Shown in pieces: positions 34,920 through 42,907 of a stretch of 64,000 nucleotides of DNA; positions within the stretch are counted from its first letter, which is position 1, and every line of letters starts with the position of its first letter. The stretch spans positions 1,674,001 to 1,738,000 of the forward strand of contig NZ_JACCKX010000001.1 of assembly GCF_013423955.1 (NCBI RefSeq), in the 5' to 3' direction. The notes below the pieces were generated by a model, which was not told the origin of the DNA, searched no databases, and saw only the letters and a program-made list of their open reading frames with translations. This DNA is from Ottowia beijingensis (GTDB taxonomy: Bacteria > Pseudomonadota > Gammaproteobacteria > Burkholderiales > Burkholderiaceae_C). The position numbers and the translations under genes are program-made.

Positions 34920-35010
34920 GGCTTGTTCCTGTGAAAGTGAAAAGGGAAACAGCGGTTGAACTGAACGAAACTGGCAATTGTGCCGCAACGCCCATGCCAG
35001 AATGCCCCGC

Positions 35011-36521
35011 ATGAAGGACGATCCGGATTTCCTGGACCAGGTACGCAGCGAGGTGACCGACCCGCGCATCTGGATCGACCGCTTCGTCGTCGGCCTGTTC
35101 GCGCTGCTGGCCGGCTTGTCGGTGGTGCTGTTCACGCTGCTGGCCGACGCGGCCGAGCAGGCCTTCAAGTCGATGCAGGCCAGCGGGCGCTGGTGGCCGC
35201 TGCTGTGGACACCGGCACTGACGGCGCTGATCGTGTGGGCCACCACGCGCTTTGCGCCCGGCGCGGGCGGCTCGGGGCCGCCGCAGGCACTGGCGGCGCT
35301 CGATCCGCGGCTGGACGCGTCCTCGCGCTCGGCGCTGGTGTCGCTAAAGATTTCCTTGGCCAAGGCGCTGGCGGTGGTGGGCGGGCTGCTGGCAGGGCTG
35401 TCGATCGGGCGCCAGGGGCCGTCGGTGCAGATCGCCGCGGGCGTGATGTACGCCGCGCGGCGCTTTCTGTCGCCGCGCTCGGGCATCAGCGCGCGCGAGC
35501 TGCTGGTGGCGGCGCCGCGGCGGGCATCGCGGCGGCCTTCAACACGCCGCTGGGCGGCATCGTGTTCGCCATCGAGGAGCTGTCGCGCCGGCTGGAGACG
35601 CGCTCGTCCGGCCTGATGCTGGGCGCCATCGTGATGGCCGGCCTGGTGGCCGTGGCGGCGTTCGGCAACCTGTCGTATTTCGGGCGCATCCGCATCGAGC
35701 GCGTGGAATGGGGCGTGCTGCTGCCGGGGCTGACGCTGGCGCTGGTTTGCGGGCTGGTGGGCGGGCTGTTCGCGCGGCTGCTCATCGTGTCGCTGTTCGG
35801 CGGCACCGACCGCTTCAGCGCCTATCGTCGCCAACATCCGATCCGCTTTGCCGCCGCCTGCGGGCTGGCGGTGGCGGTGATCGGCCTGGTGACGCAGGCC
35901 ACGGCCGTGGGTGGCGGGCATGCGCACACGCGCACGCTGCTGGCGGGCGAATCGCCCGACGCGCCGCTGCTGTGGACGCTGCTGAAGTTCGTCGCCACCT
36001 GGCTGTCGGCCTGGTCGGGCGTGCCGGGCGGGCTGTTCACGCCCAGCCTGTCGATCGGCGCCAGCCTGGGGCACGACGTGGCGCAGCTGCTGGCGCCCGA
36101 ATACACCACGGTGCTGATCGCGCTGGGCATGGCCGGCTTTCTGGGCGCCATGACGCAGACCCCCATCACCGCCATGATCATCGTGATGGAGATGGTGGAC
36201 GGCTACGCCATGGTGCTGGGGCTGATGGCCTGCGCGCTGCTGGCCAGCCTGGTGTCGCGCATGGTCAGCCGGCCGCTGTACGCAACGATCGCCGACCAAC
36301 TGGTGGCGCGCCTGGCGCCCGACGCCACCGCTAGAACGCCCGAGCAGCAGATGGCGCAGCCGATGCCTTCGACGCCGGCATCACCTGCCCCCAGCCCAGC
36401 AGCAGCCACAGCAGCGCCAACACCGACGTTGCCACCAGCACCGCCTGCGGCCCCGGCCTTGACCAGCCAGCCGCCCAGCGCGCCGCCGGCAAACAGGCCC
36501 AGCGACTGCAGCGTGTTGTAG
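35011..36521 (+). CDS. ClC family chloride channel/transporter, frameshifted
   Basis: A ClC-type membrane protein for chloride transport, usually Cl-/H+ exchange. The start [20 protein letters not shown] leads to helices and the family motifs GGSGPPQ and GRQGPSVQI; after ARELLVA the frame changes, and one missing G near 35512 restores [23 protein letters not shown]. The later [15 protein letters not shown] anion-site motif is intact. The reading frame after [11 protein letters not shown] runs on to 36521 through Ala/Pro-rich sequence that is antisense to the neighbouring MFS gene, so the real C-terminus is uncertain and may carry another indel. Confidence 0.88.
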
Positions 36522-37526
36522 ACGCCCAGTGCCGCGCCGCGCGCATGCGCTGGCGCCAGGCGCGAGATCAGGCTCGGCTGCGTGGCCTCCAGCAGGTTGA
36601 AGGCGATGAAGAAGAACAACAGCAGCGCGCCCAGCGTCCACAGCCCCGGCGCACGCGGCGCCAGCAGCAGCAGCGCCAGTTGCACGGCAAACAGCAGCGC
36701 GATGCCGGTGCGCAGCACCGCGCAGCGCACCGCGCCGCTCGGCCGCGAACAGCCCGCCCAGCATGAGGAACGAGGCCAGCACCGCCGGCAGGTACACGTG
36801 CCAGTGCTGCGCCTTGGGCAGCCCGGCCTGCACCAGCAGCGCGGGCACCACCACCCACATCGCCATCTGCACCGTGTGCAGCACGAACACGCCCAGGTCC
36901 AGCCGCCACAGGTGCGGGTGCAGCCACACGTCGGCCAGGCGGCCGCGCGGCACGTCGGCGTGCTTGGCCGGCTCGGCCGGCGTCCACCACAGCACCACGG
37001 CGATGCCGGCCAGCGACAGCGCGCAGGTCAGCCAGAACAGCCCGCCCAGGCCGATCACCGCGGCCAGCGGCGGCGCCGCCACCAGCGACAGCGCGAACAT
37101 CGCCGCGATGCTGATGCCCACCAGCGCCATGCCCTTGGTGCGCACCTCGTCGCGCGTCTGGTCGGCCAGCAGCGCCGTCACCGCTGCCGACACCGCACCC
37201 GCGCCCTGGATGGCGCGGCCGATGATGAGCATCTGCACGCTGCCCGCCAGCGCCGCGACGGCGCTGCCCAGGGCGAACACCAGCAGCCCGACCACGATGA
37301 CCTTCTTGCGCCCCACGCGGTCGGACGCCAGCCCCAGCGGCACCTGCATGACGGCCTGCGTCAGCCCGTAGATGCCCATCGCCAGCCCCACCAGCGCCGG
37401 GTCGTCGCCGCCGGGGTAACGCGCCGCCTCCAGCGCGAACACCGGCAGCACCAGGAACAGCCCCAGCATGCGCAGCGCGAAGATGCCCGCCAGCGACAGG
37501 CTGGCGCGCCGCTCGTCCGGCGTCAT
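36331..37526 (-). CDS. MFS transporter, frameshifted
   Basis: A 12-helix major facilitator exporter. The start at 37526 ([20 protein letters not shown]) leads to the motif A loop [20 protein letters not shown] and further helices. The frame is lost near 36735 (after [13 protein letters not shown]) and again in a gggg run near 36465. With both repaired the product continues [20 protein letters not shown] and [12 protein letters not shown], then [20 protein letters not shown], and stops at 36331. Length is about 398 residues. The family exports small molecules, often drugs; substrate unknown. It overlaps the run-on end of the ClC gene. Confidence 0.85.
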
Positions 37527-37836
37527 GCGGTGGGAAACGGGGAGGAGGAGGAAGCAGCGGTCACGCGAATTGAACAACGAAGCCGGGCAGAACGCGGCCC
37601 CGCGGGCCGCGCCCGGTATTGTCGATCATCGGCGCGTAGCTGCCGGACAAGGCATCGAATCGGGCTTCAGGCGCCGTCCAGAAAGCGCTGGAAGCTATCC
37701 AAAAAGAGCGATAGAGGACTGCTGGGGTGACACCAGCAGGCACGGGCGTTGCTCACAAGGCAGGCAGCGTGTGCCGCAGAAATACTCCCGATTCAATAGC
37801 TTCCTGCGCAGTACTGGTAACGCCTGAAGGCCATTT
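37527..37836. other. Intergenic region with hairpin repeats
   Basis: The 310 bases between the MFS gene and the LysR gene hold no ORF I trust. They contain a partial reversed copy of the hairpin repeat (37679-37705, aagcgctggaagctatccaa) and a forward copy at 37780-37836. Confidence 0.6.
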
Positions 37837-37842
37837 TCATGC
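37780..37842 (+). repeat. Hairpin repeat family copy, degenerate stem
   Basis: gaaatactcccgattcaata, then gcttcctgcgcagtactggt, then aacgcctgaaggccattttc. The left (aatactcc) and right (aaggccattt) ends fit the family; the stem is poor. It overlaps the end of the LysR gene. Confidence 0.55.
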
Positions 37843-38744
37843 CGAATCTTCGGTACTGCGCAGCAGATCGAGCAGCGCGCGCAAACCCGCCGGCTGCAGG
37901 CGCCGGCTGGGGTGGTACAGGTACAGCTGCTCGGCCGGCGGCAGCCAGTCTTGCAGCACCCGCACCAGCCGCCCGGCGGCCACGGCGGGCGCGGCCTGCC
38001 CTTCGTAGACGTAGGCCAGCCCCAGGCCGGCCTCGGCCGCCAGCAGCATGGCCGTCTGGTCGTTGGCGGTGAAAGCGCCCGCCACCTGCACCTCGAACCC
38101 GCGCCCGTCCGGTGCGACGAACTCCCAGCCATACAGCCGCCCACTGGGAAAGCGCAGCCGGATGCAGGCGTGCGCCATCAGCTCGGCCGGCGTGCGCGGC
38201 GTGCCGTGGCGCGCCAGGTAAGCGGGCGCGGCGACGACGGCAAAGCGCTGCGGCGCGCCCACCGGCAGCGCCACCATGTCGCCCTGCAGACTCTCGCCAA
38301 AGCGCAGGCCGGCGTCGAAGCCGGCGGCCACGATGTCGACCAGCGCCTCGTCGCAGCTCAGCTCCACCGCCATGCCGGGGTGCGCGGCCAGAAAGCGCGC
38401 CAGCCGCGGCATCAGCACCAGGTGGGCGGCGGTGCGCGGGGCGGTCAGGCGCAGGGTGCCCCGCGGGTGTCGGCGGCCTCGCGCGCCTCGCCCACCGCGC
38501 GGCGGATGTCGGCCAGCGCCGGCGCCAGCGTGGCCAGCAGGCGCGCGCCGGCTTCGGTGGGCGCCACGCTGCGGGTGGTGCGGTGCAGCAGGCGCAGGCC
38601 CAGGCGCGCTTCCAGCGTGCGCAGGCTGTGGCTGACGGCCGAGGGCGTCACGCCCAAGCGCGTGGCAGCGGCGCGAAAGCTGCCCGCCTCGGCCACGGCG
38701 GCAAAGGCTTGCAGCTCGTTCAGCGGGGCGTCCGGCAAGGTCAT
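37837..38744 (-). CDS. LysR family regulator, frameshifted
   Basis: The N-terminal winged helix (MTLPDAPLNELQAFAAVAEA, then AVSHSLRTLEARLGLRLLHR) ends at TRG; the effector domain continues in another frame from TLRLTAPRTAAHLVLMPRLA. One missing G in the gggg run near 38462 joins them, giving about 302 residues. The effector part has the usual DAGLRFGESLQGDMVALPVG and AEAGLGLAYVYEG motifs of the CrgA-like subgroup. It is divergent from the aldo/keto reductase gene 98 bases away, which it probably regulates. Confidence 0.88.
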
Positions 38745-38841
38745 TGGTGAAAGTGGCTCAGCAATTCGATGAATGGCGGGGCGATTATCAAACGCAGCCG
38801 GCCGGCGTAAGCTGAACCCTCATTGAAGAAAAGGACCCGCC

Positions 38842-39847
<1,006 letters not shown>

Positions 39848-39870
39848 GCGCGCCCGAACACGCCGCGTTC

Positions 39871-39884
39871 TTGATGTTTGCTAA
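39871..39884 (+). promoter_or_regulatory. Possible FNR/Dnr-type half site
   Basis: TTGATGTTTGCTAA has a perfect left half (TTGAT) of the FNR/Dnr box TTGAT-N4-ATCAA and a poor right half. It lies about 90 bases before the first gene of a cluster that ends in a Crp/Fnr regulator. Weak on sequence alone. Confidence 0.3.
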
Positions 39885-39972
39885 GGATCGGAAGCTTCGC
39901 AGGAACGCGCGCTGAATCCCGCCCTCCGACGTTCCATGCAGGCGATGTCCGCCTGACGTCAAGGAGATGAGG

Positions 39973-40467
39973 ATGAAAGCCCTGAAATGGACGCTCGCGG
40001 CCACCGCCGTGGTCACGCTGATGACGCTGGGCGCGCCGATCCACGCCCAGGCCCAAACCGCCGCCCACGACCACGGCAGCGCGCCGCAGTCGCTGACGCT
40101 CAACCAGGGCCAGAAATGGGCCACCGACGCGCCGTTGCGCAAGGGCATGGATGGCATCCGGGGCCTGGTTGCACCGCAGCTGAAGGCCGCGCACGCCGGC
40201 AAGCTCAGCGCCGCCCAATACAAGCAACTGGCCGGCAAGATCGAACGCGAAGTCGCCGGCATCGTGGAGAACTGCAAGCTGGAGCCCGCCGCCGACGCCC
40301 AGCTGCACGGCCTGATCGCCGAGATCGGCGCCGGCGTCGACGCCTTGAACGGCAAGTCCGCCGACACCCGGCCGGTCGATGGACTGCTGAAGGTGACGCA
40401 CGCCGTCAACCAATACCCCCACTACTTCGACCACCCGGGCTTTCGTGCCCTCCCGATCGCGCACTGA
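39973..40467 (+). CDS. Exported small helical protein, DnrO-like
   Basis: An aaggag site at 39961-39966 best serves the ATG at 39973 (the ATG at 39967 is too close). The 164-residue product has a signal peptide (MKALKWTLAATAVVTLMTLG, cleavage near AQAQ). The mature part is predicted mainly helical: LNQGQKWATDAPLRKGMDGI, VENCKLEPAADAQLHGLIAE, then VTHAVNQYPHYFDHPGFRAL. The sequence reminds me of proteins annotated 'DnrO' next to denitrification regulators, from memory only. It has one mature cysteine and several histidines. First gene of a five-gene run to the Crp/Fnr gene at 42198. Confidence 0.72.
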   Translation: MKALKWTLAATAVVTLMTLGAPIHAQAQTAAHDHGSAPQSLTLNQGQKWATDAPLRKGMDGIRGLVAPQLKAAHAGKLSAAQYKQLAGKIEREVAGIVENCKLEPAADAQLHGLIAEIGAGVDALNGKSADTRPVDGLLKVTHAVNQYPHYFDHPGFRALPIAH

Positions 40468-40508
40468 GCGCTTCATGGCCCGTCTGACCACCACCTGAGG
40501 AGACCATC

Positions 40509-41101
40509 ATGACCTTCACCACTTTCCTTCGCACGCTGGCATCGTCGATCACCAGCCTCGTCATCCGCCCCGCCTCGGCGCACTGCGACACGGCTGACGG
40601 CCCCGCCGTCGTCGATGGCCGCCGCGCGCTGAGCCAGGGCAACGTCAACATCGCCCTGAAATGGGTCATGCCCGAGGGCGAGGACGAACTGCGTGCCGCC
40701 TTCGACCGCGCCCAGCGCGTGCGCGCCGTGGGCGGTGAAGCGGCCGCGCTGGCCGAGCAGTGGTTCCTGGAGAACATGGTGCGCATCCACCGGGCCGGCG
40801 AAGGCGCGGGCTACGACGGCATCAAGCCGGCTGGCCCCATGTCCCGGCCCAGGTGCGTGCCGCCGACGAGGCGCTGGAGAAGGGCAGCATCGAGCCGCTG
40901 CGCGGCCTGATCGACGCCGAGCGCTGGCCCGAGCTGGAAAAGCGCTTCGACAAGGCCATCGCGCTGAAGCACTTCGACGACGACGACCTGCCCGCCGCGC
41001 GCACCTACATGGACGCCTACGTGTCCTTCTTCAAATACGCCGAAGGGCACGACCACGAGCATGGGCACGGCCACCACGGTCATGGCGGCGACCACCACTG
41101 A
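40509..41101 (+). CDS. DUF6448-type protein with HCD motif and His-rich tail, frameshifted
   Basis: The product begins MTFTTFLRTLASSITSLVIR, then PASA, then HCDTADGP, so cleavage after ASA would leave His-Cys-Asp at the new N-terminus. The helical body contains FLENMVRIHRAGEGAGYDGI, which I associate with DUF6448. One missing C near 40840 joins KPAGPM to SPAQVRAADEALEKGSIEPL. The last 17 residues are almost all His, Gly, Asp and Glu (HDHEHGHGHHGHGGDHH), a likely metal-binding tail. Joined length is about 197 residues. A tgaggag site precedes the ATG. Next to an S26 protease; see findings for the parallel with nickel SOD. Confidence 0.75.
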
Positions 41102-41120
41102 TCGGAAAGGGATCACCGGC

Positions 41121-41564
41121 ATGTTGTGGCTCACCCGCGTGCAATCGCACTCCATGGCCCCGACGCTGCCCGGCGGCGCGCTGGCGCTGACGCGCCGGCT
41201 GTGGCGCCGCACCCCGGTGCGCCGCGGTGACGTGGTGGTGGTCGATTCGCGCGAGCTGGGCCGGCACGTGGTCAAGCGCGTCATCGGCCTGCCGGGCGAG
41301 ACCGTCGCCATCGAGGCAGGACGGGTGTCGATCAACGGCCAGCCGCTGGCCGAACCCTACGCCAGCCGTTCCGTCTTTACCGACACCTTTCACGTCCCCG
41401 CTGGCCACTACCTGCTGCTGGGCGACCATCGCGACGCCTCCAGCGACAGCCGCAGCTGGCGCCAGCCCTACATCGCCCGCGCGGCGCTCATCGGGCGCCT
41501 CATTGGCCGCGGCTGGTCGTGGCCGCAGCGTGGTTTGCCATTCGCGGTAGAGAGACCAGCATGA
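41121..41564 (+). CDS. S26 family peptidase without membrane anchor
   Basis: A 147-residue signal-peptidase-like serine protease. The catalytic serine is in QSHSMAPTLPGG (about residue 11) and the general-base lysine in HVVKRVIGLPGET; the GDHRDASSDSRSW box near the C-terminus is the conserved region E of type I signal peptidases. Unlike LepB, it has no hydrophobic N-terminal helix (MLWLTRVQSHSM), so it should be cytoplasmic, as are the proteases that mature nickel superoxide dismutase. It sits 19 bases after the HCD-protein gene and overlaps the next gene by four bases (ATGA). Substrate inferred: the HCD protein. Confidence 0.82.
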   Translation: MLWLTRVQSHSMAPTLPGGALALTRRLWRRTPVRRGDVVVVDSRELGRHVVKRVIGLPGETVAIEAGRVSINGQPLAEPYASRSVFTDTFHVPAGHYLLLGDHRDASSDSRSWRQPYIARAALIGRLIGRGWSWPQRGLPFAVERPA

Positions 41565-42163
41565 ACACGCCCGCTTACTACGACACCGTGCCGCCCATCA
41601 CGATGACCGACCCGCTGGCCGAAACGCTCGGCTCGGCCGAGGGCGGCACGCTCGAATACCGCTACCTCGACGCCGTCAAGTTGACCGGCCACTCCTGCCC
41701 CACCGTGGCCGGCGCGTGGCGCTTGACACGCGACGCGCTGGCCCGCCTGTACCCGCAGGGCACGCCACGGCGCGGCGAGATCAGGGTGGAGTTGCGGGAG
41801 TCGCTCGATGACGGGGTGGTCGGCGTGATCGCCAGCGTCGTCTCGCTGGTGACGGGCGCCGCCAATGCCGGCGGCTTCAAGGGCTTTGCCGGCCGCCATG
41901 GCCGCAAGGACCTGCTGGCCTTTGGCGTGCCGATGCGCGGCGACATCCGCTTCACCAGACTGGACGACGGCCGTTCGGTCGAGTTCACGCGCCAGGGCTT
42001 TGCCGTGCCGCGTTCGGCCGAACTGACGCAACTCCTGCGCGCCGCCGTGGCGCCCGAGGCCACCGAAGCTGCCCGGCGCGCCTTCGCCCAGCGCTGGAGC
42101 GGCTGGGTAGAGCAGATGACCGACCCGGCCTGCCCGCCGGAGTGGGTCGAGACGGCCGCCTGA
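41561..42163 (+). CDS. FmdE-like protein
   Basis: A 200-residue cytoplasmic protein. The segment LDAVKLTGHSCPTVAGAWRL (residues ~36-55) corresponds to the HGHxCPG-type Cys/His motif of the FmdE family (first described next to formylmethanofuran dehydrogenase genes), and ANAGGFKGFAGRHGRKDLLA follows. FmdE-like proteins bind metal and are of unknown function outside methanogens. No zinc ribbon is seen at the C-terminus. Coupled to the protease gene by an ATGA overlap and followed by the Crp/Fnr gene 34 bases on. Confidence 0.7.
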   Translation: MNTPAYYDTVPPITMTDPLAETLGSAEGGTLEYRYLDAVKLTGHSCPTVAGAWRLTRDALARLYPQGTPRRGEIRVELRESLDDGVVGVIASVVSLVTGAANAGGFKGFAGRHGRKDLLAFGVPMRGDIRFTRLDDGRSVEFTRQGFAVPRSAELTQLLRAAVAPEATEAARRAFAQRWSGWVEQMTDPACPPEWVETAA

Positions 42164-42197: not shown

Positions 42198-42907
42198 ATG
42201 GCCCGGCGCGAAGTCCCCCTGAAACCCTGCTGGCGCGCCTGCCCTTGTTTAGCGCGCTGGACAAGGCCACGCTGGCGCGGCTGGCGGCTGTCGCCACGCG
42301 GCATGAATTCAAGCGCGGCGAACAGGTGTTCCGCCATGGCGAGCCGCTGGGCGGCATGTATGTCGTCGTCTACGGCCAGATTCGCCTGCTGGGCGCCGGG
42401 CCACCAGGCGCGCAGCGGCTGACCGGCATCGCGGGGCCCGGCCACAGCATTGCCGAACCGCTCGCGTTTCTCGACCACACCGCCGTGGTGACCGCCGAAG
42501 TCGCCAGCGATGCGCTGCTGCTGCAAATCCCCAAGCAGGCGCTGTTCGACGAGCTGGAGCGCAACCCTCTGCTGGCGCGGGGCATCATCGTCGGCCTGTC
42601 GCGGCGCGTCGAGAGCCTGGTGCAGGAGCTAGCGCTGCAGGCCCTCAGCAATGGCACCGAGCGCTTCATCGCCTGGCTGCTGCGCCGCTGCGACGACACC
42701 GGAGCGCCCTTCGTCGTCACCCTGCCCTCCACCAAGCGCGCCATCGCCTCGCACCTGAACCTGACGCCGGAACATTTCTCGCGCATCCTGCAGGAATTGC
42801 AGCAGGCAGAGCTGCTGCAGGTCAGCGGCCGAACCATCACGGTGCCGCACCCGGCGCGGCTGATGGCAGGCTGGCGCGCCTGCAATCTTTTGCCTGAAAA
42901 CCGATAA
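42198..42907 (+). CDS. Crp/Fnr family regulator, Dnr-like, frameshifted start
   Basis: The conserved beginning [20 protein letters not shown] is split: the ATG at 42198 (MARREVP) is in another frame from the rest. One missing C in the ccccc run near 42221 joins them and gives 236 residues. The cNMP-like domain ([20 protein letters not shown]) lacks the N-terminal cysteines that hold the Fe-S cluster of FNR, as in Dnr/NnrR regulators that sense NO through heme. The helix-turn-helix is [20 protein letters not shown]. It closes the 40-43 kb cluster and probably controls it. Confidence 0.87.

Follow-up and report, generated by a model that had tools for sequence, protein, structure and literature searches.

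A candidate DUF6448–S26 peptidase pair of Ottowia beijingensis that may work like the NiSOD/SodX system and is distinct from nickel superoxide dismutase

The stretch of DNA analysed here (the window) covers 64,000 nucleotides of the Ottowia beijingensis genome, and the features of the locus are collected in Table 1. The central gene encodes a protein of the Pfam family DUF6448 (PF20046), whose profile matches both halves of the product above the gathering cut-off of 27 bits, and it is followed by an S26 peptidase gene that starts 20 bases 3' of the DUF6448 stop. The first-pass annotation had described a leader ending in ASA before HCDTADGP and a His-rich tail; the translation indeed reads MTFTTFLRTLASSITSLVIRPASA and then HCDTADGP, and the tail, GHDHEHGHGHHGHGGDHH, is present, though in another frame than the leader. 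The same annotation had taken the protein for the product of one gene, which needs correcting: there is no single open frame, because a one-base frameshift near 40,840 interrupts the gene; a DNA alignment finds it one base short there compared with L021 and L022. Three further genes within 6 kb of DUF6448 are broken or truncated: the family matches of a LysR gene (37837-38744) and an aldo/keto reductase gene (38842-39743) each fall into two pieces in different frames, and a ClC gene (34980-36521) lacks the first 90 profile positions. Since these neighbours are broken too and the gene is intact in the two close relatives L021 and L022, the frameshift is likely an indel error of the assembly. 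All four split or truncated genes lie in positions 34980-41101, which points to an indel-prone assembly, and the genome was scored 89% complete. Homologues of the gene for the small predicted secreted protein upstream, which possibly shares the DUF6448 transcript, occur in four of the 80 loci described below: next to DUF6448 in L021 and L022, and close by in L038 and L039. The weakly FmdE-like protein downstream contains a GHSCP motif, its start overlaps the S26 stop codon, and a homologue was found in the same 80 loci only in L021, the closest relative.

Table 1. Features of the DUF6448–S26 locus (positions in the window)
Feature	Position	Strand	Basis or detail
Small predicted secreted protein upstream of DUF6448	39967..40467	+	ORF, no Pfam match
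DUF6448 leader and first-half frame	40509-40910	+	PF20046 positions 1-83, 112.2 bits
Leader, 24 residues, ends ASA, weakly hydrophobic, without Sec-type n-region	40509..40580	+	Translation
His-Cys-Asp, predicted N-terminus after cleavage	40581..40589	+	HCD conserved in relatives
DUF6448 first-half domain	40590..40845	+	His70 codon 40788-40790, Glu74 codon 40800-40802 (mature numbering)
Frameshift site, probable assembly error	40838..40850	+	DNA alignment with L021 and L022
DUF6448 second half and His-rich tail, other frame	40840..41101	+	PF20046 positions 80-147, 59.6 bits
His-rich tail, GHDHEHGHGHHGHGGDHH	about 41045-41098	+	Translation
Anchorless S26 (type I signal peptidase) protease	41121..41564	+	Ser11 codon 41151-41153, Lys52 codon 41274-41276
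Weakly FmdE-like protein	41561..42163	+	PF02663 18.2 bits, under cut-off 22.9
Crp/Fnr-family regulator	42245..42907	+	cNMP_binding and HTH_Crp_2 profile matches

The window peptidase matches PF10502 at 104.4 bits (cut-off 22.9). It had been read as an S26 peptidase with no membrane anchor, and this reading holds, with 10 residues before the catalytic Ser; the start is most likely that given in Table 1, the counterpart of the L021 start, rather than the in-frame upstream ATG at 41061. Ser11 and Lys52 are found in all 36 rows of the S26 alignment, including the window, the signal peptidase I profile TIGR02227 matches 20/20 aligned S26 sequences, and the model of the window peptidase (pLDDT 86) matches the structures of SpsB and LepB. 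The LepB paralogues of the same genomes show, by eye, hydrophobic stretches upstream of the catalytic Ser.

A scan of named genomes yielded at least 577 DUF6448 relatives, the best 80 of which to a window-like query were kept, so that this set leans to the subfamily of the window; two patterns were used, one holding HCD and DGP and one holding HR, either of which sufficed, and three hits (L071, L077, and L086) without a DUF6448 ORF were dropped before the counts. We found an S26 gene immediately 3' of DUF6448, in the same orientation, in 38 of these best 80 of at least 577 loci, spanning Pseudomonadota, Actinomycetota, Chloroflexota, and Bacillota. An S26 neighbour was also found in 9 of the 18 genes retrieved with the Pfam model, several of which are among the 80 as well. 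The co-occurrence in other genomes that the first-pass annotation had called for is thus common. In a neighbour clustering of 77 loci, from which DUF6448 itself and the ORFs antisense to it were left aside, S26 was present in 38 loci and the next family, an ABC transporter, in 10. The spacing differs between the types of pair: the distance from the DUF6448 stop to the catalytic Ser codon is 30-66 nt in the 24 pairs with a soluble-type peptidase, 96-124 nt in the 12 clade pairs with an anchored peptidase, 183 nt in L074, and 644 nt in L076, where it is counted from the first fragment of a split DUF6448 gene. Annotated plasmid records of Tetragenococcus and Aerococcus also show DUF6448 followed by lepB. 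The family itself is rare, occurring in 6/149 genomes of relatives, 6/399 of the family, 5/389 of the order, 3/398 of the phylum, and 3/384 of an actinobacterial class, where each count includes the centre genome and the samples overlap. Copies of DUF6448 are also carried on plasmids of Klebsiella, Salmonella, Citrobacter, Enterobacter, Raoultella, and Serratia (records H48-H56 and H59-H66).

The 80 loci hold 83 DUF6448 ORFs, of which 82 contain the motif HCD and one, a C-terminal fragment, lacks it; part of this conservation arises by construction because the scan patterns contained HCD and DGP, or HR. The motif is also present in 18/18 genes found by the Pfam model, which starts after HCD. 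We aligned 72 sequences from 81 plus-strand references, leaving out near-copies, truncated rows, one second copy, and the minus-strand second copy in L050; all were cut to begin at HCD, so His1 and Cys2 are there by construction. The invariant residues in this alignment are G7, P8, W28, R68, H70, R71, E74, G80, and Y147; His70 and Glu74 are thus kept in 72/72 sequences. The body of the protein, described from the window as helical, is predicted to be helical in the model of the mature protein of the close relative L021 (pLDDT 91.3), in which secondary-structure bridges occur at residues 4 and 82; in this model the N-terminus appears to pack close to where the helix with H70 and E74 ends. Sequence comparison of DUF6448 with solved structures gave a designed protein as the best hit (E 0.00076, with no stretch passing alone) and all others at E ≥0.8, a fold search with the model gave no match at E ≤0.001, and the VIA-align rows reached a Z of 5.3 at most, which is usual among helical bundles. 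Text searches of the literature collection used found no paper on DUF6448.

In the DUF6448 tree (without L046, L058, and L076), 34 of the 35 S26-linked loci and the window fall in one clade of 37 rows (99/89). This clade, hereafter the S26 clade, also holds L033 and L041, which have N-out leaders and no adjacent S26 gene, the contig of L033 ending about 370 bases downstream; the S26-linked L074 falls outside. The S26 tree (without L028, L046, L058, L121, and L124) is broadly similar in shape, and the pairwise distances of the two proteins are correlated (r 0.67, n = 34, Mantel test, 0 of 2000 permutations as high), a correlation that could be explained by shared descent or co-inheritance, as the Mantel test ignores the shared history of the species. 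SodX was also tried as a sister of the DUF6448-linked S26 peptidases; its branches are long and unstable, and we claim no placement. The leaders of the clade have Ala at -1 in 39 sequences and Ala or Val at -3, and those of the soluble-type loci have Ala at -1 and Ala or Val at -3 in 24/24.

The leader class and the peptidase class agree in 36 of the 38 S26-linked loci, with weak leaders defined by a best 12-residue hydrophobicity under 2.2, a cut-off chosen after the data had been seen. In the case of the weak, non-secretory leaders, 24 of 25 S26-linked loci encode an anchorless peptidase; the exception, L027, combines an anchored peptidase with a leader shortened by an upstream stop. In the case of the hydrophobic leaders, 12 of 13 S26-linked loci encode an anchored peptidase. 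In 11 of these 12 peptidases, as well as in that of L027, the charge follows the hydrophobic stretch, so that the catalytic domain is predicted to lie inside. Accompanying this arrangement, the leaders of the 11 loci have a net charge after minus before the stretch of +1 or +2 in ten cases, such as PRRASA-HCD, and of 0 in L062. L074, the twelfth, has a leader and a peptidase of the classical outward type, and by our reading the Tetragenococcus and Aerococcus plasmid pairs, with a Sec leader and an N-in anchor, belong to this type too. The thirteenth locus, L076, has a split DUF6448 gene and no in-frame anchor, with hydrophobic residues lying in another frame upstream of S26. In contrast to the 14 hydrophobic leaders of the S26 clade, whose charge after minus before the stretch ranges from 0 to +2, the 42 leaders outside range from -5 to +2: 36 are negative, that is, more positive before the stretch and Sec-like, four are even, and two are reversed. 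Most of the relatives without an S26 neighbour carry ordinary secretory signals. In this typing, L030, L037, and L065 were typed anew, L043 and L069 were trimmed, and the short leaders among six loci were replaced by the in-frame upstream stretch. The match of leader and peptidase topology is suggestive; it cannot reach significance because descent leaves one independent topology contrast on the starred branches and two on all branches, and Fisher tests on the leader groups, which were defined post hoc and ignore descent, were given no weight. Two independent origins of the soluble type were considered and are unsupported, a single soluble origin not being rejected (AU p 0.33).

The regulatory surroundings of the S26 clade differ from those of the other relatives. 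A profile search located a Crp/Fnr homologue no more than 2.5 kb from DUF6448 in 20 of 39 S26-clade loci vs 3 of 38 others; these genes had formed no single cluster in the neighbour clustering. FNR-type boxes (at least 9 of 10 letters matching) occur in the 300 nt before DUF6448 in 11 of 38 rows of the clade, compared with 3 of 43 outside it; shuffles predict 0.06 and 0.74, respectively. Within the clade loci, such boxes occur in 88 of 7400 random windows and in 17 of 651 regions upstream of ORFs of at least 200 residues. Six of the 11 clade boxes belong to one actinobacterial group, and the count becomes 10/36 rows after removal of near-copies, with descent ignored; no FNR box was found upstream of the window's own DUF6448 gene. 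Taken from the DNA, the Crp/Fnr regulators and FNR-type boxes suggest anaerobic or nitric-oxide (NO) control.

Genes of NO detoxification neighbour DUF6448 solely outside the clade. There, qNor adjoins DUF6448 in L051, L064, L068, and L075 and lies within 1.5 kb in L079, hemerythrin adjoins it in L042, L050, L051, L052, and L067, and L051 also carries NorV, amounting to 9 of 38 loci in total. No qNor, NorV, or hemerythrin neighbour appeared in the neighbour search of the S26-clade loci, and a weak Ric match was seen near DUF6448 in L076. A plasmid of Pelobacter propionicus (L160:1-5077) carries the order hcp-PAS-ric-flavorubredoxin-DUF6448-ferredoxin, placing nitrosative-stress genes around a Sec-type DUF6448, and in Sinorhizobium medicae DUF6448 adjoins hemerythrin. 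A link to NO through genome content was dropped, as qNor is not enriched genome-wide (over the cut-off in 7/38 pair genomes vs 23/150 genomes of the window's family, the latter set being composed differently); the window's genome has no qNor. The link to NO thus comes from the neighbours for the secreted members and only indirectly, via regulation, for the clade of the window. An NO or anaerobic role of the window-type DUF6448 is accordingly put forward tentatively, at lowered odds because the qNor, NorV, and hemerythrin neighbours all lie outside the S26 clade.

We propose that DUF6448 and the adjacent S26 peptidase form a substrate–protease pair that bares an N-terminal His1-Cys2-Asp3 as a putative metal site, a reading that we consider probable as a whole. 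That the two are a dedicated pair, in which this protease would cut this protein, is very likely. DUF6448 would be made as a precursor with a short leader ending in AxA, and the neighbouring S26 would remove the leader and bare His1-Cys2-Asp3. In the window type the cut would take place in the cytosol because both proteins are without secretory or anchoring sequences, and processing of the predicted precursor on the cytosolic side is likely, only a shade less so than the pairing itself. The bared end, together with the invariant His70 and Glu74, would then most likely make up a metal site, to which the His-rich tail could serve as a metal reservoir; that there is such a site at the N-terminus is somewhat better than an even guess. 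The protein may act in anaerobic or nitric-oxide stress metabolism rather than in superoxide removal. A bolder version, which we regard as speculative and rather unlikely in its entirety, is that DUF6448 represents a second family that, with no relation to NiSOD, works through a bared N-terminal His-Cys-Asp, that it moved from outside the cell to the inner membrane face and then to the cytosol, each time with a topology-matched S26, and that it serves as a metal protein under nitric-oxide or low-oxygen stress.

A different purpose of the cut has to be weighed, namely that it releases or localises DUF6448 or starts its turnover, unrelated to a metal site at His1. An N-out hydrophobic leader would hold the precursor at the membrane until cleavage set it free, and some relatives hold HCD without a long leader: in L091 (1685-2221), a methanogen bin, and in the two actinobacterial genomes L163 and L164, DUF6448 starts MPP-HCD. 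HCD is thus kept there without an AxA cut, and these leaderless members argue against a free His1 being needed universally. In L081 (7839-8558), L090, L097, L098, and L166, a further DUF6448 paralogue stands in tandem with a Sec-type copy; its N-terminus is long and partly hydrophobic and ends in ALG, GIG, or GIS before HCD, not in AxA. L155 combines an N-out leader and a Crp/Fnr gene with the lack of an S26 next door. Taken together, these relatives imply that HCD can persist where no S26 gene is adjacent, and perhaps where no cut is made at all. However, the soluble leaders leave nothing to free, yet the protease is retained, and conservation is seen at residues +1 to +3 from the predicted cut, which release alone would not need. 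We therefore hold a cut serving release or turnover alone to be rather improbable. In L081, L084, L095, L097, and L099, proteins of a heavy-metal-resistance type (PF13801) and of a zf-HC2 type are encoded upstream of DUF6448, resembling a metal-sensing sigma/anti-sigma set, with Pfam checked on one member per cluster. The DUF6448 protein of Tetragenococcus (L156:3902-4735) ends in a stretch that looks by eye like a LysM repeat and fits an extracellular location.

Ordinary secretion would make the leader a Sec signal and S26 an extra signal peptidase I; HCD would simply be where a mature periplasmic protein starts. This reading draws on the relatives outside the clade, which mostly have classical Sec leaders before HCD, on the best scores of the S26 proteins, which are with signal peptidase I, and on L074, L156, and L157, where a Sec leader is paired with a classical anchored peptidase. 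However, the window leader, which the first-pass annotation had asked to be checked as a normal Sec signal, is unlike one, with a best 12-residue hydrophobicity of 1.19 vs a median of 2.72 outside the clade (42 rows), and the peptidase encoded next to it is anchorless. The anchorless peptidases of the weak-leader loci (all but L027, under the post hoc cut-offs) and the charges after, not before, the stretch in the hydrophobic clade leaders speak against it as well, and we judge it improbable for the window. The split gene could also mean that the window copy is a decaying pseudogene and that the pair no longer works in the Ottowia beijingensis genome. Against this, the three other broken or truncated genes point to assembly indels, both halves still match DUF6448 with HCD, His70, and Glu74 kept, and L021 is 95% identical to the window over 85 columns of the first half; decay is a minor prospect, a little less probable still. 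That the pair is a diverged nickel superoxide dismutase and SodX, for which the HCD start, the similarly short leader, the helical body, and the neighbouring soluble S26 would speak, is very improbable given the failed profile match, the missing second hook Cys, the comparison of profiles, the S26 score under the SodX cut-off, and the FNR-type context, as set out below.

If the substrate–protease reading is true, it would add a second dedicated S26 system with an unrelated protein, and the baring of an N-terminal His-Cys for metal would be a recurring solution; to our knowledge, NiSOD with SodX is the sole dedicated S26 maturation system of such a kind. It would also give the first lead to a function for DUF6448, a Pfam family of function unknown, and a natural series in which substrate and protease apparently switch compartment together. 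The family (PF20046) comprises an S26-linked clade with N-out or soluble leaders, whereas most of the other relatives examined have Sec leaders.

Compared with NiSOD (SodN, PF09055) and SodX, the likeness consists of a short non-Sec leader, a predicted cut right before HCD, a small helical product, and an adjacent soluble S26-type peptidase. The window leader, with a hydrophobicity of 1.19, is close to the NiSOD leaders of L101-L103 (1.05-1.13), and a fourth NiSOD leader has -0.05. In a study of NiSOD and its model peptides, PMC5722923 gives His1, Cys2, and Cys6 as the nickel hook ligands and describes acetylation of the N-terminus as producing an inactive mimic, which changes of His1 did not. 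The window protein has His1 and Cys2 of this hook, and the absence of the second hook cysteine noted at first sight holds, mature position 6 being D, E, G, or N in 72/72 aligned sequences. The early judgement that the protein is no classical NiSOD is borne out: PF09055 does not match the window protein (with E up to 0.1, only DUF6448 does), Cys6 occurs in 0/72 sequences, and the profile-profile probability of DUF6448 and NiSOD is 0.4%, with four sequences only in the NiSOD profile. On these three grounds, membership of the window protein in NiSOD was rejected. NiSOD entries were not among the matches listed in the fold search with the DUF6448 model, which excludes nothing. A PF09055 search of the window's genome (89% complete) found no NiSOD, and NiSOD is absent from 34 of the 38 genomes with the pair, the window's included; in the other four, a SodX-like gene lies beside NiSOD and the S26 of DUF6448 on another contig. 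The window S26 scores 30.9 bits with the SodX profile TIGR02754, under the cut-off of 63.25, as do the SodX-like genes beside real NiSODs (22.9-48.7 bits).

There are further differences between the two systems. We found no sequence relation between NiSOD and DUF6448, and DUF6448 adds a His-rich tail and the invariant His70 and Glu74. The DUF6448-linked S26 scores as a signal peptidase I, unlike SodX, and the partner of the window S26 is DUF6448, an HCD-starting candidate substrate, instead of NiSOD. Furthermore, the DUF6448 pair has a Crp/Fnr context and secreted and membrane-linked relatives. In copper 'histidine brace' proteins, a free N-terminal His is likewise made by leader cleavage; in DUF6448, this His is followed by a conserved Cys, and the modelled structure is helical. 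LepB and SpsB share with the DUF6448-linked S26 the catalytic Ser/Lys, the overall fold, and the AxA cut motif in the predicted substrate. Compared with LepB, the window type lacks an N-terminal anchor, another type has a predicted reversed anchor orientation, and the DUF6448-linked peptidases are encoded directly after a single candidate substrate gene. By analogy, the DUF6448–S26 locus is a candidate pair that would work like NiSOD with SodX, yet it is not NiSOD.
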